Shown in pieces: positions 1-32,200 of a stretch of 33,719 nt of DNA. The DNA comes from Phycisphaerales bacterium (GTDB lineage Bacteria; Planctomycetota; Phycisphaerae; UBA1845), in assembly GCA_013140575.1 (NCBI GenBank), contig JABFSN010000056.1, forward strand, positions 1-33,719. The letters run 5' to 3'. Every line of letters starts with the position of its first letter. Positions within the stretch are counted from its first letter, which is position 1. The position numbers and the translations under genes are program-made. Under the pieces are notes generated by a model. The model was not told where the DNA came from and did no database searches. It saw only the letters and a program-made list of their open reading frames with translations.

Positions 1-352
1 GAATCGGCCAGGTGGGGCAGACCGCACCGGGGCGGTGGGCGCGGGTGGCGACTGTGACCATGCGGCCACGAGTGGCGGTCGGGGTGTTGCTGTTTCGGGC
101 GGCGGAAACGTCGAGCGCCATCACGGGGCTTGCGGTGGTCGGATCCGGTGAGAACGTGGATTCGGCCGGGGTGCGATTCGGAGCGGCGAAATTGGAATTG
201 CGAAGCGGTCCGCGGGAACGTGGGGGGTCGCTCCGCGGTCCGCGCGGCGGAAGATAATCAACCGAACGATGACGGTTGGCAGGCGAGGGACAGGCAATTG
301 ACGGCGTGGTTGGGACATGACCAGGGCTCGATTCGTCAGGACGACGAATCAG
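1..352. other. Upstream region with no supported gene
   Basis: No convincing gene is seen. Short open frames exist on both strands, for example one starting with GTG at position 12, but they have no recognisable domain, no signal peptide and no clear ribosome-binding site, and they overlap one another as high-GC shadow frames do. The region probably holds the promoter and leader of the giant secreted-protein gene that follows. I could not pick a specific promoter. Confidence 0.5.
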
Positions 353-3300
353 ATGAGAACTACCGTGAATAGAAGCGTCATTGCGGCATTGCTGGCGGCG
401 GCATCGTTCATCGTTGCGGATGCGCGGGGACAGGTGGTCCGCGTGGCGCCGGTCGTGCGACAGACGGCGACGGCGGAGGGTTCGACGCGGGTGGCGGGGG
501 CGACGCCGCCGGCGTCGGCCGTGCGGATCGCGACGGGTTCGACGTTCTACGTGGAAATCTGGGCGACGCAACCGGGGGCGCCGCCGGACGGCTTGGCGTG
601 CGTGCACGTCGATCTGGGATACGACCGGACGGATTTGATGAATTCCGTGCCGCCGCTGCAGGCGTCGGGGTTGTTTTCGGTGAACGTGGTGACGCCGGTG
701 TTTGACGATCTGTCGGGCGCCGTGGGCGACGTGGGCGGATGCCAGCCGATTCCGCCGATCGCGGGGCTGGGCGTTGGCGAATGGGTGCTGGTGGACCGGG
801 TGCCGATGACGGCCATCGGCACGGGGGCGAGCATCACCGTGTCGGTTGGGGATGCCAATAATGTTTTCGCGGGGACCTCGATTATCGGGCAATTGGACAA
901 CGTGGCCCCGGCCAATGTTGATTTTCAGACGCGGGTGTTCGCGATCGGCGACTGCCTGACGGCAGCGGATTGCGACGATTCGAATCCCTGCACGGATGAC
1001 AGTTGCTCGGTGGCGAACACGTGCGTGTATGTCAATAACTCGGTCGGGTGCGATGACGGCAGCAACTGCACCACGGGAGACGTTTGCGGCGGCGGGGCGT
1101 GCGCGGGGACGGCCGTCGATTGCAGCGGGTTGAATAACCAGTGCAACGTGGGTGTTTGCAATGCCGCGACGGGACTGTGCCAGGCCCAGCCAACGAACGA
1201 GGGTCTGACGTGCAGCGACGGGAACAACTGCACGACGGGGGACGTGTGCACGGCCGGCGTTTGCGGTGGAACGGCCGTCAATTGCAGCGGGCTGAACAAT
1301 CAGTGCAACGTTGGCGTGTGCAATCCGGCCACGGGACTGTGCCAGGCGCAACCGGCGAACGAGGGACTGACGTGCAACGACGGGGCCAACTGCACGACGG
1401 GGGATGTATGCACGGCGGGCGTCTGCGGGGGGACAGCGGTCAATTGCAGCGGATCGAGCGATCAATGCAACGTCGGCGTGTGCAATCCGGCGAACGGGTC
1501 GTGCCAGGCGCAGCCCGCCAACGAGGGCGGCGTGTGCAACGATGCGGACAATTGCACGACCGGGGATGTCTGCCTGTCGGGGGCGTGCGGCGGGACGGCC
1601 GTCGATTGCAGCGGGCTGGATGATCAGTGCAACATGGGGGTCTGCAACCCCACCACGGGGGCGTGTCAGACGATTCCGGCGAACGAGGGCTTCTCGTGTG
1701 ACGACGGGAACTCGTGCACGGCCGGCGATGCGTGCAGCGGCGGCAATTGCATCGGAACGCCGATGGGCGGTTGCCAGACGTGCGTGACGGCGGTGGATTG
1801 CGACGACGGCAATCCGTGCACGAACCAGTCCTGTCCGGCCGGCGTCTGCATTTACACAAACAACGCGGCGCCGTGCAACGACGGATTCGTATGCACGCTG
1901 AACGACACGTGTTCGGGCGGGGCGTGCGCCGGGGCGCCGACCGACTGCTCGTCGCTGAACAGCGCATGCACGCAGGGGGTGTGCAACACGGTCACCGGCG
2001 TCTGCCAGGCGCAGAACATCAACGAGGGCGGGCTGTGCAACGACGGGAGCAATTGCACGACCGGGGATACCTGCGCCGCCGGGATTTGCACGGGGACGGC
2101 GGTCAATTGCTCGTCGCTGGATGGCCAATGCACCGTGGGCGTGTGCAATCCCGCAACCGGGACGTGCCAGGCGAATTCGACTAATGAAGGAGCGCCGTGC
2201 AACGACGGGCTAATCTGCACGCAGAATGACTCGTGCAACGGCGGAAACTGCGTGGGAGCGACGATTCCCGGATGCCAGCCGTGCGGGACGGCATTGGACT
2301 GCAACGACGGGAATCCGTGCACGGACGGGGCGTGTCCGGCCGGCGTGTGCGTCTATACGAACAATGCGGCGCCGTGCAGCGATTCGATTCCGTGCACGGA
2401 AAACGACGTCTGCGCCGGCGGCGTGTGTACGGGTACGGCGATCGATTGCTCGTCGTTGGACGACGTTTGCGACATCGGGGTGTGCAACCCGGTAACCGGT
2501 GCGTGCCAGACGCAGGCGAGCAACGAGGGCGGAGCGTGCGACGACAACGTGCCGTGCACGATCAACGACGTGTGCACCAACGGGACGTGCCAGGGGACGA
2601 ACCGAGACTGTTCCGGGCTGAACACCATCTGCCGGGTGGGCGTTTGCAACCCGGTTACTGGTGTTTGCCAAACGCTGCCGATCAACGAGGGCGGGGCGTG
2701 CAACGACAGCAACGTCTGCACGCAGAACGACGCCTGTAACAACGGCGTATGCACCGGATCGGGCGTCGACTGCAGTTCGTTGAACAACCAATGTCTGGTG
2801 GGTGTCTGCAACCCCGCGAACGGAATGTGCGAGACGACGCCCGGGAACGAGGGCGGGACGTGCAACGACGCGCAGATTTGCACGACCGGCGATGCCTGCA
2901 ACGCGGGGAACTGCGTGGGCACGCCGACGCCCGGTTGCCAGAGCTGCGTCACCGCGTCGGAATGCGACGACGGAAACCCATGCACGAACAATACGTGCCC
3001 GGCGGGCATCTGTATTTTTGTCAACAACACGGCGTCGTGCAACGACGGACTGCCATGCACGATCAACGATGTGTGTTCGGCGGGCTTGTGCAACGGCGCG
3101 CCGCGCGATTGCAGCAGCCTGAACGACGCATGTCACGTCGGCGCGTGCAATGCGGCAAGTGGATTGTGCGAGCAGCAGCCGGCCAACAATGGCGGCGCGT
3201 GCAACGACGGCGTGCCGTGCACGATCAACGATGTGTGCAGCAATGGCACGTGCGCCGGCGCGCAGAAAGACTGCAGCGTGGTCAGCAACGCGTGCAACGT

Positions 3301-6300
3301 CGGGGTGTGCAACCCGGTGACGGGCGTCTGCGTGCCCCTGCCGATCAACGAGAGCGGCCCGTGTAACGACGTGAATCCATGCACGGTCAACGATTTCTGT
3401 TTCAACGGGGCGTGCGTGGGAATTCCCATTCAGGGGTGCCAGAACTGTTCGTCGCCGGCGCAATGCGGCGACGGGAATGCGTGCACGAACGACATTTGTC
3501 CCGCAGGCGCCTGTTTGCATCAGAATAACACGGCCTCGTGCAGTGACGCGAACAACTGCACGACCGGCGATATTTGCAATGCCGGCGCTTGTGCGGGAAC
3601 GCCGGTCAATTGCAGCGGCCTGAACGACCAGTGCAACGCGGGGACGTGCAACCCGGCCAACGGGAGCTGCCAGCCGTTGCCCATCAATGAGGCACAGGCG
3701 TGCGATGACAGTCAGGAATGCACGGCGCCGGACGCCTGCAACGGCGGCGTTTGCCTGGGGTCGCAGATAGCCGGATGCCAGAAGTGCGGCGTGGCGGCCG
3801 ACTGCGATGATGGCAACCCATGCACCAATGAATCGTGCCCGTCGGGGATTTGCATCTATGTCAACAACACGGTGGCCTGTAATGACAATAACCTATGCAC
3901 CACGGGCGATCTGTGCGCGGTCGGGGTGTGCGCGGGTACGGCGACCAATTGCAGTGCGTTGAATGACCAGTGCAACGTGGGCGCGTGCAATCCGTTCGAC
4001 GGTCTGTGCCAACCGAGTCCGATCAATGAGGGGAATCCATGTAACGACGGCGACTTGTGTTCGGCGAACGACGTGTGTACGGCGGGGACCTGCGACGGGA
4101 CGACCATTCCCGGTTGCCAGACCTGTTCGACGGCCGCGCAATGCGACGACGCGAACCCATGCACGAATGACACTTGTCCGGCCGGCGTCTGCGTTCGTAC
4201 GAACAATTCGAATTCGTGCAGTGATGGATCGCTGTGCACGACCGGCGATGTGTGTTCCGCCGGGGCGTGCGGCGGGACCGCCGTGAACTGCAGCGGTCTG
4301 AACGGCCAGTGCGTCGTTGGGGCGTGCAATCCGGCCAATGGAACGTGCCAGGCGCAGCCCGCGAATGAAGGAGGCGGATGCAACGACGGCGCGAATTGCA
4401 CAACGGGCGACGTGTGCACGGCGGGCGTTTGCGGCGGTACGGCGGTCAACTGCTCGTCGCTCGACGGACAGTGCGGGGTCGGGGTGTGTAACCCGGCCAC
4501 GGGGGCTTGCGTCGTCATGCCCATGAACGAGGGTCTGTCATGCGACGACGGAATGTTGTGCACCGTCGGCGATACGTGTATGTCCGGCGTCTGCACGACG
4601 ACGCCGGTGAACTGCACGTCGCTGGATGCCGTCTGCCGGGTCGGCGTATGCAATCCCGCGACGGGAACCTGCCAGGCGCAGAACCGGAACGAGGGAGGCG
4701 CCTGCAACGACGGCGTGAACTGCACGACGAACGATGTCTGCACGAGCGGAACTTGCGGCGGGACGGCGGTGAACTGTTCGTCGCTGAACAATCAATGCAA
4801 TCAGGGCGTCTGCAATCCGGCTACCGGGATCTGCCAGGCCCAGCCGATCAACGAGGGGCTGACGTGCACCGACGGCAGCCTGTGCACGACGGGCGACGTG
4901 TGCATGGCGGGCGTTTGCGCGGGGACGGCCGTTAATTGTTCTTCGCTCAACAATCAATGCAACGTCGGTGTCTGCAACCTGGGAACGGGTTTGTGTCAGG
5001 CGCAGACGATCAACGAGGGACTGACCTGCAATGATGGCTTGAACTGTACGGTGGGGGATGTGTGCACCAGCGGGGTCTGCGGCGGCATCGCGACGGACTG
5101 CTCGTCGTTGAATAATCAATGCAACGCGGGGGTGTGCAATCCGGCCAACGGCCTGTGCCAGCCATCGCCGATCAACAACGGACTGGCGTGCAACGACGCC
5201 AATCTGTGCACGTTGACCGATGTGTGTTCCGCGGGAACGTGCAGCGGCACGCCGCGGGATTGCAGCGCCCTGAACGACCAGTGCCTGCTGGGCGTGTGCA
5301 ATCCGGCCAACGGGCAGTGCCAGACCACGCCGACCAACCAGGGCGGCTCCTGCACGGACGGTTTTTTGTGCACCAACAACGACGCGTGCAACGGGGGCAG
5401 TTGCGTCGGCGTTCCAATACCGAATTGCCAGAAATGCGGGATCGCGGCCGATTGCAACGACGGCAACCCCTGCACCAATGAAAGCTGTCCCGCGGGGGTG
5501 TGCGTCTATGTCAACAATACGAGTGCGTGCAACGACGGAATGGCCTGCACGACGGGCGACGTGTGCGGGGGCGGGACGTGCAACGGAACGACGGTGAATT
5601 GCAATGGTCTGGACGGACCCTGCACGGACGGCGTGTGCAACCCGCTGAACGGGCTATGCGTGGCGCAGCCCATCAATCAGGGGCAAACGTGCACCGACGG
5701 GAACAACTGCACAACGGGCGACGTGTGCAACGCGGGCGTCTGCGCCGGAACTGCCGTGAATTGCAGCGGGCTGACGAATTCGTGCAATCTCGGCGTCTGC
5801 AACTCAGCGACGGGGCTATGTCAGGCACAGCCGACAAATGAGAGCGGCACGTGCAGTGACGGGCTGATCTGCACGTTGACCGACCGGTGCACGGCCGGTG
5901 TTTGCGCGGGCACGCCGCGGGACTGCACATCGCTTAACGGCGCGTGCGTGGTCGGCGCCTGTAACACCGTTAGCGGCATCTGTCAGGCGGTGCCGGCGAA
6001 TGAGAATGGGTCCTGCAGCGACGGGGTGCCGTGCACGACGTCGGATCGCTGCGTCAACGGCACTTGCGCGGGCACCGCGGTCAGTTGCACGCAACTCAAC
6101 ACGATCTGCCGCGTCGGCGTGTGCAACAGTTCAACGGGCGTTTGCGAGCCGCAGCCCATCAACCAGGGCGGCTTTTGCGTGGACGGAAACAACTGCACGG
6201 TTTTGGATTCGTGTCTGAACGGAAACTGCGTCGGCCAGCCGCGGGACTGCTCGTCGCTGAACAGCGCGTGCATTGTCGGACAATGCAATCCCGCGAACGG

Positions 6301-8584
6301 TTTGTGCGGCGCCGTCCCGGGAAACGAAGGCGGCGCGTGCAGCGACAGTGTGCTGTGTACGATCAACGATGCGTGCGCCGCGGGCACGTGCGTCGGCCAG
6401 CCGCGGGATTGCTCCGCATTGAGCGACGCCTGCAACCTGGGAACGTGCAATGCGGCCAACGGCCAGTGCCAGCGGACGCCGATCAATCAGGGGTTTACCT
6501 GCAACGACAACAACGTGTGCACGACCAACGACCGTTGCAGTGTCGGCGTCTGCGTGGGAACGCCGGTGAACTGTACGGGCCTAAACGATCAATGTCATCT
6601 TGGCGTGTGCAACAGCGTTAATGGAAGCTGTGTGTCCACCAACGCCAACGAGGGCGGGACGTGCAGCGACGGAATTCCATGTACCGTAAACGACGTCTGC
6701 ACGGCCGGTGTCTGCGGCGGAGTTCCGAAAAATTGTTCGAGTGTCAACAACACGTGCAACGTCGGCGTGTGCAATCCGGCAACCGGGGTTTGTGAACCCA
6801 GTCCGACCAATGGAGGCGGCATCTGCAACGACAATAACCCGTGCACCACGGGCGAGATCTGCGTTGTGGGCGCGTGCATCGGAGGGCCCGTTAATTGCAG
6901 CGGCGTCGACGATCAGTGTAACGTGGGGGTCTGCCAAGCCGGCACGGGCGCGTGCATTCCCTCTCCGGCGAACGAGGGCGATCCGTGCGACGACGGCGAC
7001 TTCTGCACCGAGACCGATGCGTGCGCCGGCGGCGCGTGCGTCGGATCGACCGTCAATTGCAGCGACGGGGTGTATTGCAACGGCTTCGAAACCTGTTTCG
7101 ATCAGCAGTGTCAACCGGCGGCCGACCCGTGCGACGACAACGTTCACTGCACGATTGACGCGTGCAGTGAAGCTGCCGATCAGTGCATGCACACGCCCAC
7201 GGCGAGCTTCGGACCCTACGGCGATCCGAATGGCGATGGCAACATCGACATTTTCGATATCCTGTGCGTGCTGGATACGTTCGGAGGCAGTTTCGGGGTG
7301 TGTACGCTCAACGAAGCGGACTTGGCGCCGTGCGGCGGCGACGGCGAATTGGACGTTTTCGACATCCTGATGATTCTGGATCTCTTCAGCGGCATCGATC
7401 CCTGCTGCAGCACCGACATCGGAACGTGCTGCACCAGCGCCGGCGCGTGCATGTTGATGGTTGGTGAAATCGAATGCTGGGCGCAGGGCGGCGTATTCCG
7501 CGGCGGTGCGGCGTGCGCCGACTCCGACGGGGACCGCATTCCCGATGCCATGGAAACGAACAACTGCAATTTGAACCTGCCGTGCAGCAGCGGCACCGAT
7601 CCGCAGAACCCTGACACCGACGGCGACGGCATCTGGGACGGCGACGAGGTATACGGCACGCTCAGCGGTTTGAATCTCCCGGCGCTGGGCGCGCTTCCCT
7701 GCCGGCGGGATGTTTTCGTGGAGTTGGATTGGACCGATGATTCATTCGACATCGGACAGCACACCCACCAGCCGACCCAGGCCGCGGTGAATGTTTTGGT
7801 GACGGCGTTCGCCGCCGCGCCGACGACGAATCGGGATGGGACGACGGGCATCACGCTGCACGTCGATCATGGCCAGGGCGGCCCATTTACCGGCGGCAAC
7901 CTCATTCCCGGAAACAACGCTTCGATCGTCTTCGACGTCACTTTTTATATATTCAAAGGTCTCCATTTCGCGCCCAATCGCAAGGGATATTTTCATTACG
8001 GGGTCTACGGTCACCGCGTCGATTCACCCAGCAACAACGCGATGGGCATCGCCGAGTTGCCGGGGGACGACTTCATGGTGACGCTCCAGAACAACACCCA
8101 GTCGACCAGCCTGATTTCAAAGGTGACCCTGCACCAATTGGGACACAATCTCGGGCTGCGGCATGGCGGCAACGAAGACCTGGATTACAAACCGAACTAC
8201 AACTCGGTGATGAATGCGCGGTACCTTGTCGGCGGCGTCGACGGCATTGACTGCGACGCGCGCGGCAACGGCGGCGCTGATTTTTCGAGGGGTACGCGAA
8301 TATCATTGAACGAGAATGCCCTGAACGAACCGCAAGGCGTCTGCGGTGGAATTCCCATCGACTGGAACGGTGGCAGTATCTCCAGCGCGCCGATTGCACG
8401 AAACATCAACTGTGAGCCGACATTCAGCGCTGCGTGCGGCCAGGGACTGCAGCAGTGTTTCGACAGCGTGTGTACCACGCTGTCGGATTTCAACGACTGG
8501 GCAAACATCGTGTTCCCGGCATTGAGCGCGGGCGATCGCGTCGCGGGACCGCCCGAACATAGCCGGTGCCCGTCGGGCCCGTGA
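353..8584 (+). CDS. Giant secreted Cys-rich repeat protein with dockerin-like pair and metalloprotease-like C-terminal domain
   Basis: The product is an exported protein of about 2,743 residues; its function is unknown. The ATG at 353 is preferred because AGGA lies at 338-341 and the protein then begins with a normal signal peptide (MRTTVNRSVIAALLAAASF...ARGQ); an in-frame ATG at 317 adds 12 residues. Residues about 30-195 look like a beta-sandwich, possibly cohesin-like (GLACVHVDLGYD). Residues 201 to about 2280 are disulfide-rich repeats. A dockerin-like EF-hand pair follows (DPNGDGNIDIFDI near 2291; GGDGELDVFDI near 2328), then TSP3-like loops (DSDGDRIPD, DTDGDGIWDGDE). The C-terminal 250 residues resemble zinc metalloproteases (DVFVELDW, GITLHVDHG, HQLGHNLGLRHGG at 2594), but the catalytic Glu of HELGH is Gln. 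There is no C-terminal anchor. The frame is intact throughout. Confidence is high for the gene, low for its role. Confidence 0.93.
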   Translation: MRTTVNRSVIAALLAAASFIVADARGQVVRVAPVVRQTATAEGSTRVAGATPPASAVRIATGSTFYVEIWATQPGAPPDGLACVHVDLGYDRTDLMNSVPPLQASGLFSVNVVTPVFDDLSGAVGDVGGCQPIPPIAGLGVGEWVLVDRVPMTAIGTGASITVSVGDANNVFAGTSIIGQLDNVAPANVDFQTRVFAIGDCLTAADCDDSNPCTDDSCSVANTCVYVNNSVGCDDGSNCTTGDVCGGGACAGTAVDCSGLNNQCNVGVCNAATGLCQAQPTNEGLTCSDGNNCTTGDVCTAGVCGGTAVNCSGLNNQCNVGVCNPATGLCQAQPANEGLTCNDGANCTTGDVCTAGVCGGTAVNCSGSSDQCNVGVCNPANGSCQAQPANEGGVCNDADNCTTGDVCLSGACGGTAVDCSGLDDQCNMGVCNPTTGACQTIPANEGFSCDDGNSCTAGDACSGGNCIGTPMGGCQTCVTAVDCDDGNPCTNQSCPAGVCIYTNNAAPCNDGFVCTLNDTCSGGACAGAPTDCSSLNSACTQGVCNTVTGVCQAQNINEGGLCNDGSNCTTGDTCAAGICTGTAVNCSSLDGQCTVGVCNPATGTCQANSTNEGAPCNDGLICTQNDSCNGGNCVGATIPGCQPCGTALDCNDGNPCTDGACPAGVCVYTNNAAPCSDSIPCTENDVCAGGVCTGTAIDCSSLDDVCDIGVCNPVTGACQTQASNEGGACDDNVPCTINDVCTNGTCQGTNRDCSGLNTICRVGVCNPVTGVCQTLPINEGGACNDSNVCTQNDACNNGVCTGSGVDCSSLNNQCLVGVCNPANGMCETTPGNEGGTCNDAQICTTGDACNAGNCVGTPTPGCQSCVTASECDDGNPCTNNTCPAGICIFVNNTASCNDGLPCTINDVCSAGLCNGAPRDCSSLNDACHVGACNAASGLCEQQPANNGGACNDGVPCTINDVCSNGTCAGAQKDCSVVSNACNVGVCNPVTGVCVPLPINESGPCNDVNPCTVNDFCFNGACVGIPIQGCQNCSSPAQCGDGNACTNDICPAGACLHQNNTASCSDANNCTTGDICNAGACAGTPVNCSGLNDQCNAGTCNPANGSCQPLPINEAQACDDSQECTAPDACNGGVCLGSQIAGCQKCGVAADCDDGNPCTNESCPSGICIYVNNTVACNDNNLCTTGDLCAVGVCAGTATNCSALNDQCNVGACNPFDGLCQPSPINEGNPCNDGDLCSANDVCTAGTCDGTTIPGCQTCSTAAQCDDANPCTNDTCPAGVCVRTNNSNSCSDGSLCTTGDVCSAGACGGTAVNCSGLNGQCVVGACNPANGTCQAQPANEGGGCNDGANCTTGDVCTAGVCGGTAVNCSSLDGQCGVGVCNPATGACVVMPMNEGLSCDDGMLCTVGDTCMSGVCTTTPVNCTSLDAVCRVGVCNPATGTCQAQNRNEGGACNDGVNCTTNDVCTSGTCGGTAVNCSSLNNQCNQGVCNPATGICQAQPINEGLTCTDGSLCTTGDVCMAGVCAGTAVNCSSLNNQCNVGVCNLGTGLCQAQTINEGLTCNDGLNCTVGDVCTSGVCGGIATDCSSLNNQCNAGVCNPANGLCQPSPINNGLACNDANLCTLTDVCSAGTCSGTPRDCSALNDQCLLGVCNPANGQCQTTPTNQGGSCTDGFLCTNNDACNGGSCVGVPIPNCQKCGIAADCNDGNPCTNESCPAGVCVYVNNTSACNDGMACTTGDVCGGGTCNGTTVNCNGLDGPCTDGVCNPLNGLCVAQPINQGQTCTDGNNCTTGDVCNAGVCAGTAVNCSGLTNSCNLGVCNSATGLCQAQPTNESGTCSDGLICTLTDRCTAGVCAGTPRDCTSLNGACVVGACNTVSGICQAVPANENGSCSDGVPCTTSDRCVNGTCAGTAVSCTQLNTICRVGVCNSSTGVCEPQPINQGGFCVDGNNCTVLDSCLNGNCVGQPRDCSSLNSACIVGQCNPANGLCGAVPGNEGGACSDSVLCTINDACAAGTCVGQPRDCSALSDACNLGTCNAANGQCQRTPINQGFTCNDNNVCTTNDRCSVGVCVGTPVNCTGLNDQCHLGVCNSVNGSCVSTNANEGGTCSDGIPCTVNDVCTAGVCGGVPKNCSSVNNTCNVGVCNPATGVCEPSPTNGGGICNDNNPCTTGEICVVGACIGGPVNCSGVDDQCNVGVCQAGTGACIPSPANEGDPCDDGDFCTETDACAGGACVGSTVNCSDGVYCNGFETCFDQQCQPAADPCDDNVHCTIDACSEAADQCMHTPTASFGPYGDPNGDGNIDIFDILCVLDTFGGSFGVCTLNEADLAPCGGDGELDVFDILMILDLFSGIDPCCSTDIGTCCTSAGACMLMVGEIECWAQGGVFRGGAACADSDGDRIPDAMETNNCNLNLPCSSGTDPQNPDTDGDGIWDGDEVYGTLSGLNLPALGALPCRRDVFVELDWTDDSFDIGQHTHQPTQAAVNVLVTAFAAAPTTNRDGTTGITLHVDHGQGGPFTGGNLIPGNNASIVFDVTFYIFKGLHFAPNRKGYFHYGVYGHRVDSPSNNAMGIAELPGDDFMVTLQNNTQSTSLISKVTLHQLGHNLGLRHGGNEDLDYKPNYNSVMNARYLVGGVDGIDCDARGNGGADFSRGTRISLNENALNEPQGVCGGIPIDWNGGSISSAPIARNINCEPTFSAACGQGLQQCFDSVCTTLSDFNDWANIVFPALSAGDRVAGPPEHSRCPSGP
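953..7190 (+). repeat. Two-level coding repeat: 29 A modules and 8 B modules
   Basis: Within the giant gene, an A module of about 54 residues (about 162 bp, eight Cys) recurs 29 times by my count. Its key elements are D-C-S-x-L-N-x-Q-C, G-V-C-N-P-A-T-G-x-C, N-E-G-x-x-C-x-D-G and C-T-x-x-D-x-C-x-x-G-x-C-x-G-T. A second module, B, with D-C-D-D-G-N-P-C-T-N, C-P-A-G-V-C and N-N-x-x-x-C, occurs once at the start and seven more times internally, after A units 4, 6, 9, 11, 12, 13 and 20. The A unit before each internal B ends with a G-C-Q linker instead of the usual D-C-S. A units 1 and 2 are nearly identical, while later ones are more diverged. Confidence 0.9.
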
Positions 8585-11495: not shown

Positions 11496-14270
11496 CTACC
11501 AGCGATCGGAATCGCTGTCGGAATCGCCGCCCGAGTGGCCACTGCCGTCCACGAACTCGTAGAAGCAGTCGCCATCACCCGGCTTCGGCGCTTTGTGCCA
11601 GCACCAGCCCTTCTTGTGCCAGCCCCAATTGACGTTGTGCCAGTTGTTTCCGGCGCCATGGCCGTATTTGGGATGCGAATCGTGATCCGATCCGTCGCAC
11701 ACCAGGTCCACGATCTGTCCGTCGATTACGTCGACCAGATCGCAGCCGATGTCGATGATCGCGTGGGTCTCTTCGCAGTCACCCTCGGCGGTGAAGCTGA
11801 TCCGAATCTTCTCGCCGTCGCGACCTTCGGAATCGCTGTCCGAATCGCCGTGGTGATCATCGGAATCGCTGTCCGAATCACCGTGGCCGCCGCCGTTGCC
11901 GCCCCAGCCGCCGTTACCGCCATAGCCGCCCTTGGCCCACCAGTGACCGCCGTTCTTGCCCTTGCCGTCCGAATCGCTGTCGGAATCCGAGTCGTCATGA
12001 CCATCGGAATCGCTGTCCGAATCGGAGTCGCCATGACCGCCGCCGCCGTTGCCGACGAGGGCGCACAGATCGACCGTGCAGGTTTCGTCCCCCGCGGTCA
12101 CGATCAGCACCGCCTTCTTCGAACGGATCTTCAGCACGTCGCCGTCCGTGTCGGAATCGTCGTCGCCGTCCGAGCCGATCGGGCACAACGCACCGCCGTT
12201 GCGGCTCTCTCCGGCCACGACCTCGAACTTGCCGAACACCGAACCCACGCCGATTGGCTGCGAGCAGCTCGTGTGGATGGTCTGCTTCAGCGTTCCGTTC
12301 ACGTAGATGCTGATTTCGGTGCTCAACGTGCCCTTGTCGTCGGCGCCCATGAACGAGAACGTCCCGCCCGGCGCGACCATGCCCTCAAACACCTTTACCC
12401 ACGGTTTCTTCTGCTTGACCTTGATGGTTCCGGCATAGGACCCGTTGTACTTCAGCGTCAGCTTGGTGACCTTGCCGTCGCACTCGCCGCAGCCCGGCTC
12501 GACCACCACGACTTCCGCGTTGCACGTAACCACGCACTCGCCCTCGTCCATGCAGTCGGCCGAGCAGCCGTCTCCGTCGGCGTTGTTGCCGTCGTCGCAT
12601 TCCTCGCCGTCATCGACAATGCCGTCGCCGCAACACGGGGACGGCGCCTGCACGCATCCGTTCACCGGGTCGCATTCCGCGCGGTGGCAGTTGTCCACCG
12701 GCGCGCACGTGATCGGCGTCTGAATGCAGCCATCGTTCGGATCGCACACGACCGTGTGGCATGCGTCGGTCGGCGTGCAGGTGGTCGGCGTCTGCACGCA
12801 CCCGTTCGCCGGATCGCACGCCGCCGTGTGGCACGCATCGACCGGATTGCACGCGATAGGCGTCTCGACGCAACCATTCGTCGGATCGCAGGTGGCCGTG
12901 TTGCACGCGTCGCTGGGCGTGCATGTGATCGGCGTCTGTACGCATCCATTGACCGGATCGCATGTCGCCGTATGGCACGCATCGACCGGATTGCACGCGA
13001 TCGGCGTCTCGACGCAACCGTTCGCCGCATCACACGTCGCCGTGTGACAGGCGTCGCTCGGCGTGCACGTGGTGGGCGTCTGGGTGCAACCACTAACCGG
13101 GTCGCACGCCGCCGTGTGGCACGCGTCAACCGGATTGCAGGGAATCGGCGTCTGAACGCATTGGTTCAGACCGACGCACTGCGCGGTGTGGCAGGCGTCC
13201 TGCGGTGTGCACGGGAACGGGCTTTCCACGCAGCCCAGCACCGGATCGCACGTCGCAATGCGACAGGGATTGGTCGCCCGACACACGATCGGCGTCTGAA
13301 CGCAGCCGTCGACATCGTCGCAACTGGCCGTGTGGCACGCGTCCGACGGTTCACAGGGGTCCGTGCATGTCACGGGAATGCGAATCGCGCCCAGAATCCA
13401 CAGGATCGAATCCGAACTCGGGAATTCCGGCGGCGACACCAGCCGCACCGTCGTCGAGCCGATGCCTGCGGGAATGTTGAATGGGAAGACGGCCGTATCG
13501 AACGTCTCGCCATCCGCGCTCACCAGTTGATCGTTGATGTTCGCGTTGTTGCTGATGGTGATCCGGTCGCGCCGGGCCACGTCATTGTCCCCGGAAAAGA
13601 CGTACAAATCGCCGACCCGGGCGCTCGTCGTGGCGACGTACGGATACGTCACCGGTACGGTTACCTTGGCCGCCGCCAGCTGGTCGTTGTGCCAGGCGAA
13701 ATCCAGACCGTCGGCCGCCAGCACACGGAACTCGCCGGTTTCGGTCGGGTCGGTGTAGACCACGAACAACCCGGCGCCGTTCAGAATCGCGATGTTGTTG
13801 GCCAGGTCGCCGTCTTCGATCGTGAACGTGTGCGTGCCCGCGCCCAGGTTGGTCACCTGATCGGCCACGATGTCGGTCACGTCGGCCCGATAGCCGATGT
13901 TGTTCTTCCGGCCGCTGCCGGCCGAGATGTTCACTTCCGAGCCGATGTATTCACCGGTCAGGAATTCGCCGTTGAACAGCAGTTCCTGATCACGGTACGG
14001 CTCGTTGACCACGCAATTGCCGCCGCCGTCTTCTTCGCAGTCGATGTCACGCCCGACCCAATACAGATACGCCTTGATGACCGGCCCGCCGATATCGACG
14101 GTGATGTCCCGCGATCCAGCGCCCAGTCCCTCGAGTCCGATGCCGCCCTCGGCCACCGAAACGCCGGTGCCCTGGATATCCAGGTCCGGGTTGTTGACCA
14201 GGGTCGTCGCGTGCGCCGCGCCCGTCCCGATCAGAACCATCATTGCAGAACCCAATGCCTTCCGCTTCAT
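11496..14270 (-). CDS. Secreted Cys-repeat protein with Ser-Asp/Gly-rich C-terminal region
   Basis: The product is 924 residues. The frame is open back to 14570, but ATG 14270 has GGAGG at 14277-14281 and starts a clear signal peptide (MKRKALGSAMMVLIGTGAAHA). Residues 25-300 are a beta-rich domain (KAYLYWVG, ELLFNGEF, YRADVTDIV, GAGLFVVY) resembling DUF3344-like surface domains. Residues 302-545 hold ten 24-residue Cys repeats. Residues 547-573 match the myxococcal Cys-rich/DUF4215 pattern (CGDGIVDDGEECDDGN). Residues about 595-690 begin CDGKVTKLTLKYNG, a beta domain I recall from other bacterial secreted proteins. Residues 746-819 alternate Ser-Asp runs with Gly, His and Trp, and the protein ends SDSDSDRW. 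There is no LPxTG or PEP-CTERM anchor. It is probably an extracellular structural or adhesive, perhaps calcium-binding, protein; the role is inferred. Confidence 0.9.
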   Translation of the reverse strand: MKRKALGSAMMVLIGTGAAHATTLVNNPDLDIQGTGVSVAEGGIGLEGLGAGSRDITVDIGGPVIKAYLYWVGRDIDCEEDGGGNCVVNEPYRDQELLFNGEFLTGEYIGSEVNISAGSGRKNNIGYRADVTDIVADQVTNLGAGTHTFTIEDGDLANNIAILNGAGLFVVYTDPTETGEFRVLAADGLDFAWHNDQLAAAKVTVPVTYPYVATTSARVGDLYVFSGDNDVARRDRITISNNANINDQLVSADGETFDTAVFPFNIPAGIGSTTVRLVSPPEFPSSDSILWILGAIRIPVTCTDPCEPSDACHTASCDDVDGCVQTPIVCRATNPCRIATCDPVLGCVESPFPCTPQDACHTAQCVGLNQCVQTPIPCNPVDACHTAACDPVSGCTQTPTTCTPSDACHTATCDAANGCVETPIACNPVDACHTATCDPVNGCVQTPITCTPSDACNTATCDPTNGCVETPIACNPVDACHTAACDPANGCVQTPTTCTPTDACHTVVCDPNDGCIQTPITCAPVDNCHRAECDPVNGCVQAPSPCCGDGIVDDGEECDDGNNADGDGCSADCMDEGECVVTCNAEVVVVEPGCGECDGKVTKLTLKYNGSYAGTIKVKQKKPWVKVFEGMVAPGGTFSFMGADDKGTLSTEISIYVNGTLKQTIHTSCSQPIGVGSVFGKFEVVAGESRNGGALCPIGSDGDDDSDTDGDVLKIRSKKAVLIVTAGDETCTVDLCALVGNGGGGHGDSDSDSDSDGHDDSDSDSDSDGKGKNGGHWWAKGGYGGNGGWGGNGGGHGDSDSDSDDHHGDSDSDSEGRDGEKIRISFTAEGDCEETHAIIDIGCDLVDVIDGQIVDLVCDGSDHDSHPKYGHGAGNNWHNVNWGWHKKGWCWHKAPKPGDGDCFYEFVDGSGHSGGDSDSDSDRW
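11814..12035 (-). repeat. Ser-Asp dipeptide and Gly/His/Trp low-complexity tract
   Basis: This stretch encodes residues 746-819 of the Cys-repeat protein: several runs of Ser-Asp separated by Gly-rich segments with His, Lys, Tyr and Trp (for example GGHWWAKGGYGGNGG). At DNA level a GAATCGCTGTC-like unit recurs on the plus strand. The tract is strongly acidic and presumably extended, like the Sdr stalks of staphylococcal surface proteins in composition only. Confidence 0.8.
12636..13367 (-). repeat. Ten tandem 72-bp coding repeats, alternating in two versions
   Basis: The units encode C-x-P-x-D-A-C-H-T-A-x-C-D-P-x-x-G-C-V-x-T-P-x-x, 24 residues with four Cys. In units 4 to 9 the opening alternates between C-N-P-V-D and C-T-P-S/T-D, so the higher-order period is 48 residues (144 bp). 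That suggests the block grew by duplicating pairs of units. Units 1-3 and 10 are the most diverged. Confidence 0.85.
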
Positions 14271-14599
14271 TTCCGTCCTCCAATTAGACTGTTGACCTAC
14301 CGTCTTGCATTCAACTTCCGCGTGTTCACGCTTCCGGGAGAATGGACCACCGGTGCGCTGACGGACTGTGCCGCCATGCCGATCGGTGAATGCGGTGCAG
14401 AGCGCCCTTTCGGACGTGCGAGTGTTCCCCCCGAGGCGTTTCAGCACTATAGGTGACGGGATTTGGAGGATTCCACGTCCGCAACCGCACCGCCGATGCG
14501 TCCCATCATGCGGGCAACGAGGCACGTGCAACGGCCGCTTTTTTCGGGGCCAACGCCATCGCCAAGACATTCCCCGCTCGAATCGTTATCCTCTCGCTG
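14271..14599. other. Divergent intergenic region
   Basis: This 329-bp region separates the divergent starts of the Cys-repeat gene (-) and the helicase gene (+), so both promoters should lie here. In-frame extensions of both genes run through it but encode no recognisable protein and overlap each other. I found no promoter pair with acceptable spacing and no strong inverted repeat. Confidence 0.5.
14277..14281 (-). promoter_or_regulatory. Ribosome-binding site for the 11496-14270 gene
   Basis: GGAGG on the minus strand, six bases before ATG at 14270. It fixes the start at the signal peptide rather than at the far upstream ATG at 14570. Confidence 0.75.
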
Positions 14600-17118: not shown

Positions 17119-17817
17119 ATGGCAACTCCGTGGGCAGCTTCGGTTCGGGGTCGGTCCGTTCCGCGGGTGGCGTTGATCGCCGCCGTGTACTGTTCCGGCG
17201 CGGCGCGAGGCACGACAATTCTCCCATGCGCATTTCACGAGGTCTGCACACGATCCGACGTCGTTTTTCACGGTCGGGTTGAATCCGTGACCGGCGAACG
17301 GGACCGCGTCACGGGCTCGATTCACACCTGGACTTCGTTTGCAGTCATCGAATGGATCGCGGGGGAACCTGATCGGACGAGGTATGCGCTGCGCACGCTG
17401 GGCGGCGAGGTGGACGGCGAATCGGTTCGCGTGGCGGGCATGCCGCAATTCGAAGTGGGGGCCGAGTACGTCGTGTTCGTCCGCGAGGGCGCACGATTCA
17501 TTTGCCCGCTGGTCGGATGGCATCAAGGGTGTTTTCGAGTGGACCGGGAGACGGCGGCGCATGAACCAGCGCCGCGGTTGTCTGCGAAGTCGTCCGCGGT
17601 GATTCGCGACTATTACCACCAGGAAATCCTGGGTGTTCGCGACGGGCGTTTGTTGCGATCGAGCCCGAAAGATGAACCGAATGGACCGGGCGATATCCCC
17701 ATCGCCGGCGGGACGGGGAGCGAAGTGCGACCGTTGACGCCCGCCGCGTTCATCGCGGAGATCCGGTCCATTCGCGCGCGGACCGACGCGGCGCGGCGCT
17801 CGGGTTCCGAACCATGA
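17119..17817 (+). CDS. Small secreted protein coupled to a matrixin gene
   Basis: The product is 232 residues. The ATG at 17119 starts a signal peptide (MATPWAAS...VALIAAVYCSGAARG); an upstream in-frame ATG at 17011 is less likely. The mature part has S-D-V-V-F-H-G-R-V-E-S-V near 46-57, a TGSIHTWTSFAVIEWIAG strand pair, and G-M-P-Q-F-E-V-G-A-E-Y-V-V-F near 107-120. That layout recalls a family of small exported proteins often found beside matrixin-like proteases; an OB-fold like that of TIMP/netrin domains is possible but unproven. Its stop overlaps the start of the metalloprotease gene (ATGA), so the two are probably co-translated. A chaperone, inhibitor or partner of the protease is the simplest guess. 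Confidence 0.8.
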   Translation: MATPWAASVRGRSVPRVALIAAVYCSGAARGTTILPCAFHEVCTRSDVVFHGRVESVTGERDRVTGSIHTWTSFAVIEWIAGEPDRTRYALRTLGGEVDGESVRVAGMPQFEVGAEYVVFVREGARFICPLVGWHQGCFRVDRETAAHEPAPRLSAKSSAVIRDYYHQEILGVRDGRLLRSSPKDEPNGPGDIPIAGGTGSEVRPLTPAAFIAEIRSIRARTDAARRSGSEP

Positions 17818-19139
17818 TGAGCAACGACCGCCGACCATGCACGGTTGTCGGGGCGATCGCGATCGTGGCAGTCGCCTGCGCGCGGCCGGCGGCGGGGTTT
17901 TGCCTGCTGTCGGCGTACTGGTTCGGCGGGGAGGCGGTGATCCGTTACAATTTTCCGCCGGCCGGAATTCGCACCAACGGCACGGAATCGTGGGATGCGA
18001 ATGCAGTCTGGGCGCTGGAGCGATGGACGGCGGTTACGGGCCGATTTCAATTCACCGACGGCGGACCCAGCCGTGTCGGGCAGGACAATCGCGACGGCGT
18101 CAACAACATGGTGTTCGATGTGGTGATCGGCGGCGATGCGTTCGGACCGGAGACGTTGGCCGTCACCGTCACGCGATCGACGGCCGACGGGGACGCGCTG
18201 GAATCGGACATTGTTTTTAACGCGGCCGTGGTGTGGGACGCCTACGCCGGACCGCTGCACGCGGATCGCGACGGTCGGACGGTGTTCGATTTCCGGCGCG
18301 TGGCGCTGCATGAGCTGGGGCACGTGCTGGGGCTGGGACACCCGGACGACTCCTGCCAACAGACGGTTCCGGCCATTATGAACGCCCGGACCACGGACAC
18401 CGAAGCGCTGACCGACGACGACCGCAACGGGGTCAGTTTCATTTACGCGGACGAGAACGAACCGCCGGTCGCGGTGGCCGGCGGCAACCAGGCGGGCAAC
18501 GGCGTTCGACCTTTTCGGCTGAACGGGACGGCGTCGGGCGACGAGGACGGGTTCATCGCGTTGTACCAATGGCGCGTGAATGGCGAGCTGCACGCGACGG
18601 GACCGGAAACGGAGGTGGCGCTGAATTTCGGGACGCACATCGTGGCGTTGACGGTGGTGGACGACGACGGGGGGTCGGACACGGACACCATCATCATCGA
18701 CGTGGGACCGTATCCGTTCGCGCCGAAAAGCGGCAATCGACCGCCGGTTGCGGACGCGTCCGACGACATGACCATGCTGCTGGGTGAATCGGCGACGCTG
18801 GACGCAAGCGGGTCGTTCGACACCGACGGAGAGATCGTGCAGCACATCTGGACGGAGGGGGAGTCGATCATCGCCCGCAGCCCGCTGGTTCCAGTAGTGC
18901 CATCGACCGGCACGCACGTGTACCGCATCACCGTGTTCGACGACCAGGGGTCGGCCGCCGCCGACGAGGTGGCGGTGACGGTGCAGTCGGACCTGTTGTC
19001 CGATCCCGGGCCGGTGATCAACGGCCGACCGCCGACGGTCATGCGGCCGTCGGTGGCGATGTGCGGGCCGATGGCCATGGCGCCGATGTGGGTGGGGCTG
19101 GGCGTGGTGTTGTTGAGGCGATCCAGCCGGTTTCGCTGA
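17814..19139 (+). CDS. Matrixin-family zinc metalloprotease with two PKD-like domains
   Basis: The product is 441 residues, or one less if the second Met is used. A signal peptide ([18 protein letters not shown]) leads into a matrixin-like catalytic domain with the intact zinc motif [11 protein letters not shown] at 166-176 and a Met-turn candidate AIMN near 187. Two PKD-like beta domains follow, at about 215-300 ([10 protein letters not shown]... GEDGF-type core, [11 protein letters not shown]) and 305-395 ([10 protein letters not shown]... [23 protein letters not shown]). The C-terminus has a Cys-Gly start, a hydrophobic helix and an Arg-rich end (CGPMAMAP...LLRRSSRFR), like MYXO-CTERM/PEP-CTERM-type sorting signals. 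It is therefore probably an exported, possibly surface-anchored protease. The start overlaps the preceding gene by four bases. Confidence 0.9.
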
Positions 19140-26260: not shown

Positions 26261-29200
26261 CTACAAGTGGGGATGGCCGACCAGGCGCTGGAACAGTCCG
26301 AAATCGACCAGATCAATGTCCCCGTCGCCGTCCATGTCCAGCCGGGCGCAATCGCCGGCCGTCCCACCGACAATCGACGTGCGGCACGGATTCCACGATG
26401 CGAAGTCCGACAACGTCGTTTGGCCGTCGCCGTCGAAATCGCCCAGTCGTTCGCATGAATCGGGGACGCCGTTCACGTTGACGTCCGTGGCCACGCCGTC
26501 GTTGATCTCGCATTCGTCGGGCACATCGTTCGAGTCGCAGTCAGCGCTGGACGCGGCCGTGCGATAGTGCAGCCCAACGTCGACGAACGTCAACCCAGAA
26601 CACACCGCCGCATCGACCGCCGGTGACGGCAACAACAGCACCGCCGCATCGCCGCCGTTCACCAGTTGATTGAATTGTCCCGCAGCCAGAACCATCGTTG
26701 CCGCATCCGGTTGTTCCGGGCAATCGCGGCCGCCGTTGGCGAACAATCGCCCGGCGACGATTCCGTTCAGACGCACGTCGATCCACTCGTCCGCACTCGC
26801 CAAATCCGTTCGTGCGGACAACTGTATTTCGACGTCGCCGACGGCCACCGGCGGGGCGACGAACACATGCGTCCGCGGACGGGCGAAATCGATGGGGCCC
26901 GTCGGCCCCGACTCGACCTCGAAGCGCCCTACGTCGCAGACGTCGGGAACCGCGTTGTGGTTGCAGTCCAACGCGGCGTCCTCCGCGATGGCGCATTCAT
27001 CGGGCAAGCAGTTTCGATCGCAATCGGGCGCGCTGCCGTCCGCGACCTCGCATCCGTCGAACACGCCGTTGGCGTTGCAATCGGATTGGCAATCGTCGGG
27101 TACGCCATCGGCGTCGCAATCGTGGGATGCACCCGCGGCAATGTCACAATCGTCGGGCCGGCCGTTGGCGTTGCAATCGGTCTGACACGAATCGGGCACG
27201 GCGTCGGCGTTGCAATCGACCGTGGCGCTGGACGCAGTTTGGCAGGCATCCGACAGTCCGTCGCCATTGCAATCGTCGAAATAGTCCGATTCGAATGCCC
27301 CCTGGTCGACGCGGCAGAATTGCACGCGCGGCTCGCCCGACAGGTCCGCTTCCGCTTCGTCGAAACCGGCGTCCGGTGGACCGGCGTTAATGGCCGGCGA
27401 ATCGGGCAGCAGTCGAACATCGCCCAATTCGGGATTCACGAACCGTGCGTCGGCGCCCCGGTTACCTGTCCCCGGCCAATCGCCTTCAATCGTGCTGTAG
27501 CTGACGATTATTCGCTCCGAATCGCCGTCGACATTCGTGACCCCGTTGTCCTGAACGATGCACCCCACGAGGGTGGGCGCGGCCAGCGCTGCAGCGAACA
27601 GTCCCGCGCCGCGATCGACGGCGGAGTTGTTCACCACCGTGCTGTATTCCACACGCGGCGTGCCGCCCGCGACGTACATCCCGCCGCCGTCGTCGATGGC
27701 CGTGTTGTCGGCCAGCAAGCAATGCCGCAGGACGACGCTCGAATCGTCGGCGTAAACGCCGCCGCCGTCATCGAATGCCAAGTTTCCATCGAGCCGACAC
27801 CGGTGCAGCCGGGGACTCCCGTTGCCGCGGTCGTAGACGGCGCCGCCGTCCCCGGCCACGTTGGCCCGAAACGTACATCCCGCGAATCCGCTCCCCGGAC
27901 GGTGGCTTGCGTTGAACCACGCACCGCCATGACGCTCCGCCACGTTTCGCGTCAGGCGACTGTCGTCGGCCATCACCTTCCCGTTATCGAAATTGGCGAT
28001 GCCGCCGCCGTCCGTGCCGGCGCCATTGCCCTCGACCACCGAATCGAACAGCAGGAGTTCGGCGCCGGTGTTGGCCATCGCCCCGCCGCGGCCGCCGGCG
28101 GTGTTGTGCTCCACCATGCACTGTTCCAATATCAGGAGGGATTCACCCGCGTTGTGAATTCCGCCGCCGTCGATTTCCGCCTGATTCGCGATGATCGTCG
28201 TTTCCACAAACCGGGGAGCGCCGTTCTCGACGGACACGCCGCCGCCCCATCGCGCCGTGTTTCCGATGACTCGCGCGTTTCCAATCGTGGGGGCCGCGTG
28301 GAACACCCAAATGCCGCCGCCGTGGTCATCGGGAAAGTCGCCGTCGGCGACACCTGCCGCGATGGTGACGCCATCGAGCACCGCACCGGCGTCCACGTCT
28401 TCCGCGGTGACGACGTGATGGGCATTGTCCAACCGCGTCCCTTCCGACGAGTCGTCGTCGCCGTTCAGGTCGCCGCTCAACACCACTCGATTTCGCATCG
28501 GATCGCGGTGCTCCCGCGCCGATTCACCCCCGGCGAACCCGCCGTAAACCGCCACCCCGTCCACCAGCCGAAACGCCGCCCGACGGTCGGCGCCCGCGTC
28601 GGCTGGACGATAAACGTCGGCCGCGATCCATATTTCCGTGACGTTCCCCCCGGAACCGGCGGCGTGCAGCAGCGCGTCCTGTAGCGATTCGTAGGCATCG
28701 GCCCAGCTGCTGCCGTTGCCAGCTCCCGTCGCCCGCCCGTCTACCAATAAAACCGAATATTCGCATATATCAGGAATTCCATCTTGGTCCGCGTCGTCCA
28801 ATCGACCGTCGCCGATGTCGCACAAATCGGGGACGCCGTTCCTGTTGCAGTCCGAAATCTCCAGCTCGACAATATCGACGCTGTCGAGGACGTTGTTTTC
28901 GTCGCAATCCTCCTGATATTCATAAGCGCCCATGTCCATTGCCGGCGGTCCGCCGACCCCGGAATCGGAAACGGTTGGATCGTCCACCAGTCGAGGTTGG
29001 CCGGAAACGTCGGTCAACTCGCCCGGGGGCAGGCGGGTCGCGTCGCCGGCGTCGATGCAGGAGGAACCGGCCGCGATGCGAAAATCGTCGTCGTCCGTTG
29101 CCGAGTCGCCGTCCAGCCCATCGCCGTCGATGAACTTCGGGTCGCCCGCCGTATTCCCGATGCCACCGAAATCGTCGGTCCAGCCCTGCACGCACGAATG

Positions 29201-32200
29201 CGCGATCGTTGGAGCCGGGCCCGAAAAGGCGACTTGACCGGATAGACGAGTGCCGACCGCGTCACGATTGTTCCACAAAATGGAGTTTACGATCCCGGTG
29301 GTGCTTCCACTGTCCGCGAACAATCCGCCGCCGAGCGGCGCGAAATTTCCGCTGACGGTGCAGCTTTGCAACGAGATCGATCCGCCGGACGTGCGCACGG
29401 CCCCGCCGGCGTCGGCGCCGGTGTTCCCCGAGAAGATGCACTGAAACATCGCCGCCGATCCGGATGCCACATGAACGGCGCTGGATGAGTTGGCGTGCAG
29501 CCGGGCGTTGTACAGTTCGAGATCGCTGCTAATCGCGTAGATGCCGCCGCCGACCGCCGCCAGATTCCCGGCAATGCGAACGCCTTGCAACTGCGCGTCG
29601 CCGCCGGCCAGCGCGAAAAGCCCGCCGCCGCGGGAACCCGCCTGATTGCCGATCAAGGCGCCGCCGTGCATCGACAGCACGCCGTTGGTAACAAAAACCC
29701 CGCCTCCGTCGGCGCCGGTGAGATTGGACTCGATGCTGCAATCGATGAGCTCGGGTGCGGCATCGAGACTATGCAAGCCGCCGCCTGCGGTCGCGGCTGT
29801 ATTGCCTGTGATACGGCAGTGACGCAGCACCGGTGCGCCGCCGACAACGCGAACGCCGCCGCCACCGTCGATCGCACGGCCGCCGGTAATGATCATTCCG
29901 TCGATCACCGCGCCCGGTCCCGCATCGTCCGAGACAAGCACGTGGTAGGCGTTATCATCGGCCTGGCCGAAATCGGGAGTGTCGTCACCATTCAAATCGC
30001 CCGACAACTCCGTGAAATGCGTGCGCCAATCCCGTTCGCCAAGGGCTGTTTCACCGCCCGCGAAACCACCGTAGATCGTGACCCCGTCCATCAGTCGGAA
30101 AGACGCATTTCGATCGCCGCCGATTCCGGCCGGCCGGTAGACCCCCTCCGCGACCCACAGCCCGGTCACCAGTCCCTCCGCGGCCGACGCATACGCCACC
30201 GCCGCCTGCAAATCGACAAATGCATCGTGCCAGTTCAGTCCGCTGCCCAGTCCATCGGCGGACGAGCGGACGAATACGATGGTCGATTCGCAATAGTCCG
30301 GAACGCCGTTCCGGTTCCGATCGGGCGCGCCGAGATCATTGATTTCGCAGTCGTCGGCCACGCCGTCGGCGTCACAATCGGGTTCGCAACCGTCGGGCAC
30401 ATTGTTTCCATTGCAGTCGCGACTCGCGTGCGCCGAAACATCGCACTCGTCAGGAATGGCATTGGTATTGCAGTCCGGTGACTCGCCCGTGGAAACGTCA
30501 ATCGGATCAAACGTGCCGTTTCCGTTGCAGTCTCCGTATTCATAGGCGCCGAGATCGACAATCGGAGCGGTCCCCGACCCCGTGTCGCCGACGTCGGGCG
30601 CATCGAATCGCCGGGGGACGCCGGCCAAATCAACCGGTGTAGCTTCGGCCGTTTCACCGTTACCGTCGATGTCGTACACATCGAGCGGAATCAAGGCGTT
30701 TGCGGCGGCGTCGATGTACGGTGAATTCGGGGACAGCCGCAAGTCATCGTCGTGGGTTCCGACAATGCCGTCGGGACCCAGCGCATTCACAAATCGCGGA
30801 TCATCGGTGCGAATCGAATCGCCGTCGAATCCGCCGGAATAGGATTGAACGCAGCTACTTGCGACAAAAGGAGTGCCCGCCGCGTACAGAAGCTGCGCCG
30901 ATTGGGAAGTGCCGGTCGCGTCGCGGTTGTTCCACAGAATCGAGTTGGAAATGTCGAGACCAACGGCCGATTCAAGCCAGACGCCGCCGCCGGATATTGC
31001 GGCGACATTGTCGTGAAGAGTACAGTGGGAAAGCGACATGTTCACCGAACCGCTCCGGTGATGAATGCCACCGCCTTCGCCGGCGGTGTTGCCGCTGAAG
31101 ATCGTGTTGACCGCATGCAGCGAGGAGTCGAACACGCTGAACACGGCGCCTCCGAATCCAGAAACGCCATTGCCGAGAAACGCGCAGTTAATCAGCGCCA
31201 AATCAGCGCCCTGGCCGGCGACGGCGCCGCCGTCCTTGGCGACGTTTCCGATGAACTGTGACCGGATCAGCGTGGGTTTTCCACCCTGCATCCACATCGC
31301 GCCGCCCAAAAACCTGGATTCGTTGTCGTGAAACAGGCAGTCGACAAACGTCGGATCACCGCCGTCGTCAAACAACGGCCCCCCGCCCGCGTAGAAACCC
31401 GATTCCGACATTTCAAGATTATCGCCGAGCACGGACAATGAGCGGAGGTTTCCGCTGCCCACCGCGCTGCCGCGGTCCGCGACATTGTGGATGAACTCGC
31501 AGCGCGAAACCACGGGGCTGCCGACCTCGATATACATTCCACCGCCGATGGCGCCAACGTTTTCGCGAAAGACACAGTGCGAGACGGTCGGGGTGCCATC
31601 CTCGATGTACATCCCGCCTCCGGTGAAATGCTCGCACGTCAGTCCCAACGTCGACGTGCGCCCGGCCGTCACAACGAAACCGTCCATCACCGCGGACGCG
31701 TCGGCGCCGATCGAAGTGACCACGCGATAGGCGTTATCCGCGGTCGCATCGGATCCGGTGCCGTCGTTGGCCATCAAATCGCCCGACAGAGTTGTGACGT
31801 TGTGCGTGAAATCACGCTGCGCGCGGGCGGTCTCGTGACCCACGAATCCGCCGTAGAGCGCAAGTCCCGAGGGCAAGAGAAACGTGGCGCTGCGAGGATC
31901 GCCCGGGATCGAGAGTTCGGTGGGGCGATAAGTTCCCTTCGCGATCCAGACCTCGGCGACTCCGCCGCGAACGCGGGCTGTGTCAATGGCCGTCTGCATG
32001 TCCCGGTACGCATCGGTCCATGTGGTGCCGTGTGATCGGCCGGCCGCATCAGCGTCGACGAACAGAACGGCGACAGTGCATTCGTCAGGGGCGCCATCGG
32101 AGTCCTGGTCAGCACTGAAGTCGGAGCGAATGTCGCAAATGTCGGGCACGAGATTCCCGTTGCAGTCTTGCGCGCTCAACTGGCACTCGTCGGGCATGCC

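Follow-up and report, generated by a model that had tools for sequence, protein, structure and literature searches.

Most work on pseudo-metalloproteases concerns animals, with the ADAM family. Eukaryotic cases dominate a review of pseudopeptidases (PMC11266112), and a survey of zincins found that the Glu of the active site is replaced most often by Gln, with HQxxH among the altered ADAM sites (PMC3650047). In metzincins this Glu is the general base, and the E225A variant of mirolysin has no activity (PMC6949598). The mirolysin Tyr two residues past the Met is described as the tyrosine-switch residue; its counterpart in free astacins and serralysins is a zinc ligand, and it likely stabilizes the reaction intermediate (PMC6949598). 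Archaemetzincin has a Phe at the switch position (PMC3427221). We found no bacterial pseudo-metzincin from planctomycetes in a search of the literature, although this does not prove that none exists.

The domain described here lies at the C-terminus of a giant protein of a Phycisphaerales bacterium. It is encoded on a stretch of 33,719 nucleotides (the window), which is the whole of contig C215 from a 5.05-Mb draft genome in 268 contigs. The relatives of this genome belong to Planctomycetota and include MAGs labelled Phycisphaerales.

Architecture of the protein and its surroundings

The protein and its parts, all on the + strand, are as follows.

317–8584, +: open reading frame of 2,755 residues, secreted multidomain protein, GC3 0.76–0.81 throughout the frame
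317–433, +: probable Sec signal peptide, residues 1–39, read directly (basic start, hydrophobic VIAALLAAASFIVADA)
After the signal peptide: N-terminal domain of about 170 residues, by direct reading
968–7171, +: Cys-rich tandem repeats with a period of 54 residues (162 bp), about 36 units
7223–7372, +: dockerin-like pair of calcium-loop motifs, DPNGDGNIDIFDILCVLDTFGG ... GGDGELDVFDILMILDLFSG, read from the translation
7520–7645, +: TSP3-like Asp-rich calcium motifs, DSDGDRIPD ... DPQNPDTDGDGIWDGDE
7640–8581, +: metzincin-type domain, catalytically degenerate, from homologues and from the fold (Z about 11 to adamalysins)
8132–8164, +: zinc-binding helix HQLGHNLGLRH, with all three His and with Gln for the catalytic Glu
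8204–8218, +: Met-turn SVMNA, which retains the Met and has Ala (codon GCG, 8216–8218) for the switch Tyr
8282–8284, +: Phe 2656, Tyr in 16 of 16 close homologues

Residues 211 to 2329 contain 321 Cys, and the repeat region gave a weak match to Dicty_CTDC. Similar repeats occur on about ten other contigs of the same genome and are thus a common theme of its surface proteins. The calcium-loop pair has no Pfam dockerin match at E 0.01, and the TSP3-like motifs are conserved beside the protease domain in relatives.

Elsewhere in the window, 11496–14570 (− strand) encodes a second Cys-rich surface protein, close to 317–8584; it has 1,024 residues and matches Dicty_CTDC (five repeats), DUF7467, and, weakly, DUF4215. 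Antisense to it, a 973-residue open frame (11535–14456, +) has no Pfam match. At 26261–33718 (−), a frame cut by the contig end encodes 2,485 or more residues of a giant protein that has a Subtilase (S8) domain at its start and a weak NosD-type repeat match further on. A 441-residue matrixin with PKD-type domains (PF00413, E 7e-11) lies at 17814–19139 (+) and has an intact HELGH; its Met-turn reads AIMNA and shares the string MNAR with the degenerate domain.

Family assignment and active-site residues

Sequence comparisons placed the C-terminal domain among the metzincins. Homology extends over about 300 residues with up to 52% identity, and a family profile search matched adamalysins and matrix metalloproteinases around the zinc motif. 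The degenerate DNA motif of the site occurs once in the window against none expected (100 shuffles), and the homology shows a true metzincin site rather than a chance string. The predicted structure, with a mean pLDDT of 59 and low values around the Met-turn, resembles adamalysins, TACE, and archaemetzincin (Z 9.7–11.4 over 162–185 residues). Searches of Pfam and NCBIfam returned only domain matches below curated cut-offs, the Pfam matrixin model Peptidase_M10 scoring 21.1 bits against a gathering cut-off of 24, and a PHROGs search returned no match.

The preliminary description had read a Gln in place of the catalytic Glu, attributed it to a single base change, and noted that the zinc ligands are kept, and each of these observations stands. 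Codon 8135–8137 is CAA, specifying Gln 2607 within HQLGHNLGLRHGG (8132–8170, + strand) in an open frame; the codon in homologues is GAA or GAG; and the metzincin motif HxxxHxxGxxH retains its three His ligands. The Met-turn Met aligns with the Met of all homologues, and the residue two positions further on, a Tyr that is near-invariant within this subfamily though not across all metzincins, is Ala 2634. Both the Glu and the switch Tyr of an active metzincin are therefore missing. The domain combines homology to active-looking enzymes, loss of catalytic residues, and a conserved fold, as expected of a pseudo-metallopeptidase.

Homologues were sought in GTDB contigs and several hundred planctomycete genomes, including 114 genomes of the order. 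This search yielded 69 distinct homologous domains, 64 of them with a readable zinc motif. Glu is present in 63 of the 64, and Gln in the window domain alone. The Met+2 Tyr is found in 61 of 64 (counting L028, which reads SVMSY after correction of its register); the exceptions are the window domain (Ala), the third tandem copy of L003 (Asp), and L067 (Trp). L003 carries three metzincin copies (1254–2330, 2848–3906, and 4224–5258), the third of which keeps HELGH and has a long branch of 1.33. The genome of the window contains just one other homologue, L010 (genome G000, contig C108:9825–10622), which belongs to a different subfamily and has intact HEFGH and MSY. Among the genomes searched, no further one from the species or genus was found to carry the gene.

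The two active-site changes stand out against an otherwise conserved domain. In a close set of 16 homologues with 57 invariant columns, the window domain departs at three (E2607Q, Y2634A, and Y2656F); if columns are taken as exchangeable, both active-site residues would fall among three of 57 with P = 0.0019. Across the family, 22 columns are at least 90% conserved, and the window domain departs at exactly E2607Q and Y2634A. Two active-looking relatives, L045 and L048, show equally many departures in the close-clade columns, which indicates that the window domain is not generally eroded and that its changes fall on catalytic residues. Its end branch measures 0.54 changes per column, within a clade range of 0 to 1.3.

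The two losses do not carry equal weight. The AIMNA Met-turn of the neighbouring matrixin, which coexists with HELGH, and the Phe of archaemetzincin mean that Y2634A alone is no proof of inactivity. Loss of the Glu is the stronger argument, given the known role of this residue and the inactive E225A mirolysin.

Across 397 genomes of the class, a motif search detected HE-type sites in 240 and HQ-type sites in four. Two of the four HQ matches are real proteins, the window domain and L090; the other two, L088 and L089, seem to be chance occurrences in frames that do not encode metzincins and were set aside. L090 (genome G081, same order) is an unrelated, metzincin-like frame of 565 residues with Gln for Glu: HQLGHLFGLRHVDD.

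Probable catalytic loss and alternative readings

In our view, the C-terminal domain is likely a real pseudo-metzincin, one that folds, holds zinc, and binds without cutting. It would descend from an active enzyme, a secreted zinc endopeptidase whose metzincin subfamily is uncurated and occurs in Planctomycetota and a few further phyla. Loss of the general base (Glu to Gln) and of the switch residue (Tyr to Ala) would have occurred in this lineage, while the three His that bind zinc, the Met of the Met-turn, and almost every other conserved residue are still in place. Zinc binding is likely because the three His and the Met are kept, and peptide hydrolysis is unlikely because the base and the switch Tyr are gone. 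The earlier designation as a probable pseudo-metalloprotease is thus borne out, and it now includes the Met-turn substitution; loss of catalysis, as judged from the sequence, is well supported. The domain most likely still folds, retains zinc, and binds peptide or protein uncut, and would act as a zinc- and ligand-binding module. Its simplest use may be to recognize a ligand without cutting it, at the end of a long disulphide-rich extracellular stalk, or to form a structural cap. More tentatively, the giant stalk might carry a zinc-holding binding tip that captures peptides or guides substrates for active proteases encoded nearby; the comparison of such a tip with the adhesive pseudo-ADAMs, as their counterpart in bacteria, is just as tentative.

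Three other readings were weighed. If the enzyme were active and position 8135 wrong through sequencing or assembly, one base change would account for the Gln; every sampled homologue has Glu, and the record is a draft assembly of 268 contigs. The preliminary description had in fact proposed that Glu in all homologues would point to a single sequencing error. Glu is indeed universal among the 63 sampled, but the verdict does not follow, as the second loss is independent: the change from TAC or TAT to GCG takes three base differences, so that one read error could yield the Gln and not the Ala, and this codon lies 81 bases from 8135 in clean coding sequence with no indel or frame break nearby. 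A single sequencing error is hence insufficient as a full account, and we regard an error at 8135 as highly improbable. We give equally little credence to weak or altered hydrolysis persisting with Gln, through a different base or on another substrate class. The zinc ligands are intact, and HQLGHLFGLRH in a second, unrelated planctomycete protein indicates that such sites recur; yet the Glu is the metzincin general base (PMC6949598), and the switch Tyr that helps to stabilize the intermediate is also gone.

Recent, still neutral decay, in which the protease function became dispensable and the domain is on its way to becoming a pseudogene without acquiring a new role, is unlikely, if somewhat less so than these two. 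The substitutions occur in one genome only, and a further conserved Tyr has changed (Y2656F). With Glu in all 63 sampled homologues, Gln was rejected as a conserved subfamily trait, and selection keeping the Gln cannot be shown. Against decay, the 2,755-codon frame is open without stop or frameshift, GC3 is of coding type across the domain, and 54 of the 57 invariant columns are retained. Broad decay was rejected, since departures at conserved columns are not in excess of those of the two active-looking relatives and the end branch is not long. Genuine pseudo-metzincin status remains our preferred reading.

Comparison with known metalloproteases

Among the closest counterparts are active-looking planctomycete relatives (L001–L004, L011–L015, L045, and L047), with domains about 41–52% identical to that of the window. 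They share the DxDxDG motifs in front and the C-terminal tail CxxLxDFNDWANI, but all have HE, and SVMNY or SIMNY except in the third L003 copy. They are mostly frames of 440–730 residues without the Cys-rich repeats of about 2,000 residues. Adamalysins or reprolysins (M12B) and matrixins (M10) share the fold and the extended zinc motif with the window domain, whereas the usual Met-turn partner in its family, a Tyr at Met+2, is like that of astacins and serralysins and unlike that of adamalysins and matrixins.

Among inactive members, the pseudo-ADAMs (ADAM22 and the sperm ADAMs; HQxxH type, PMC3650047) likewise have a metzincin fold with an altered Glu or zinc site, are extracellular, and are believed to have a binding and not a cutting role. 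The fold comparison matched the window domain to structures of ADAM22, among others, at Z of about 10. These proteins differ in being eukaryotic, with disintegrin and other domains, whereas the window protein is bacterial, has Cys-rich repeats and all three zinc His, and shows no sequence-level membership. CLCA and other zincin families with substituted HExxH also changed Glu mostly to Gln, in repeated single-lineage losses (PMC3650047); they represent another family with many substituted members, compared with one of 64 in the window subfamily.

As a bacterial case in which two active-site residues are gone and the rest is kept, the domain offers a clean natural test of whether the metzincin scaffold can be reused for binding. 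It is also a warning for annotation pipelines, which would call the protein a matrixin-like protease. Taken together, these comparisons give good support to adding the window domain to the known pseudo-metalloproteases, including those of the HQxxH type.
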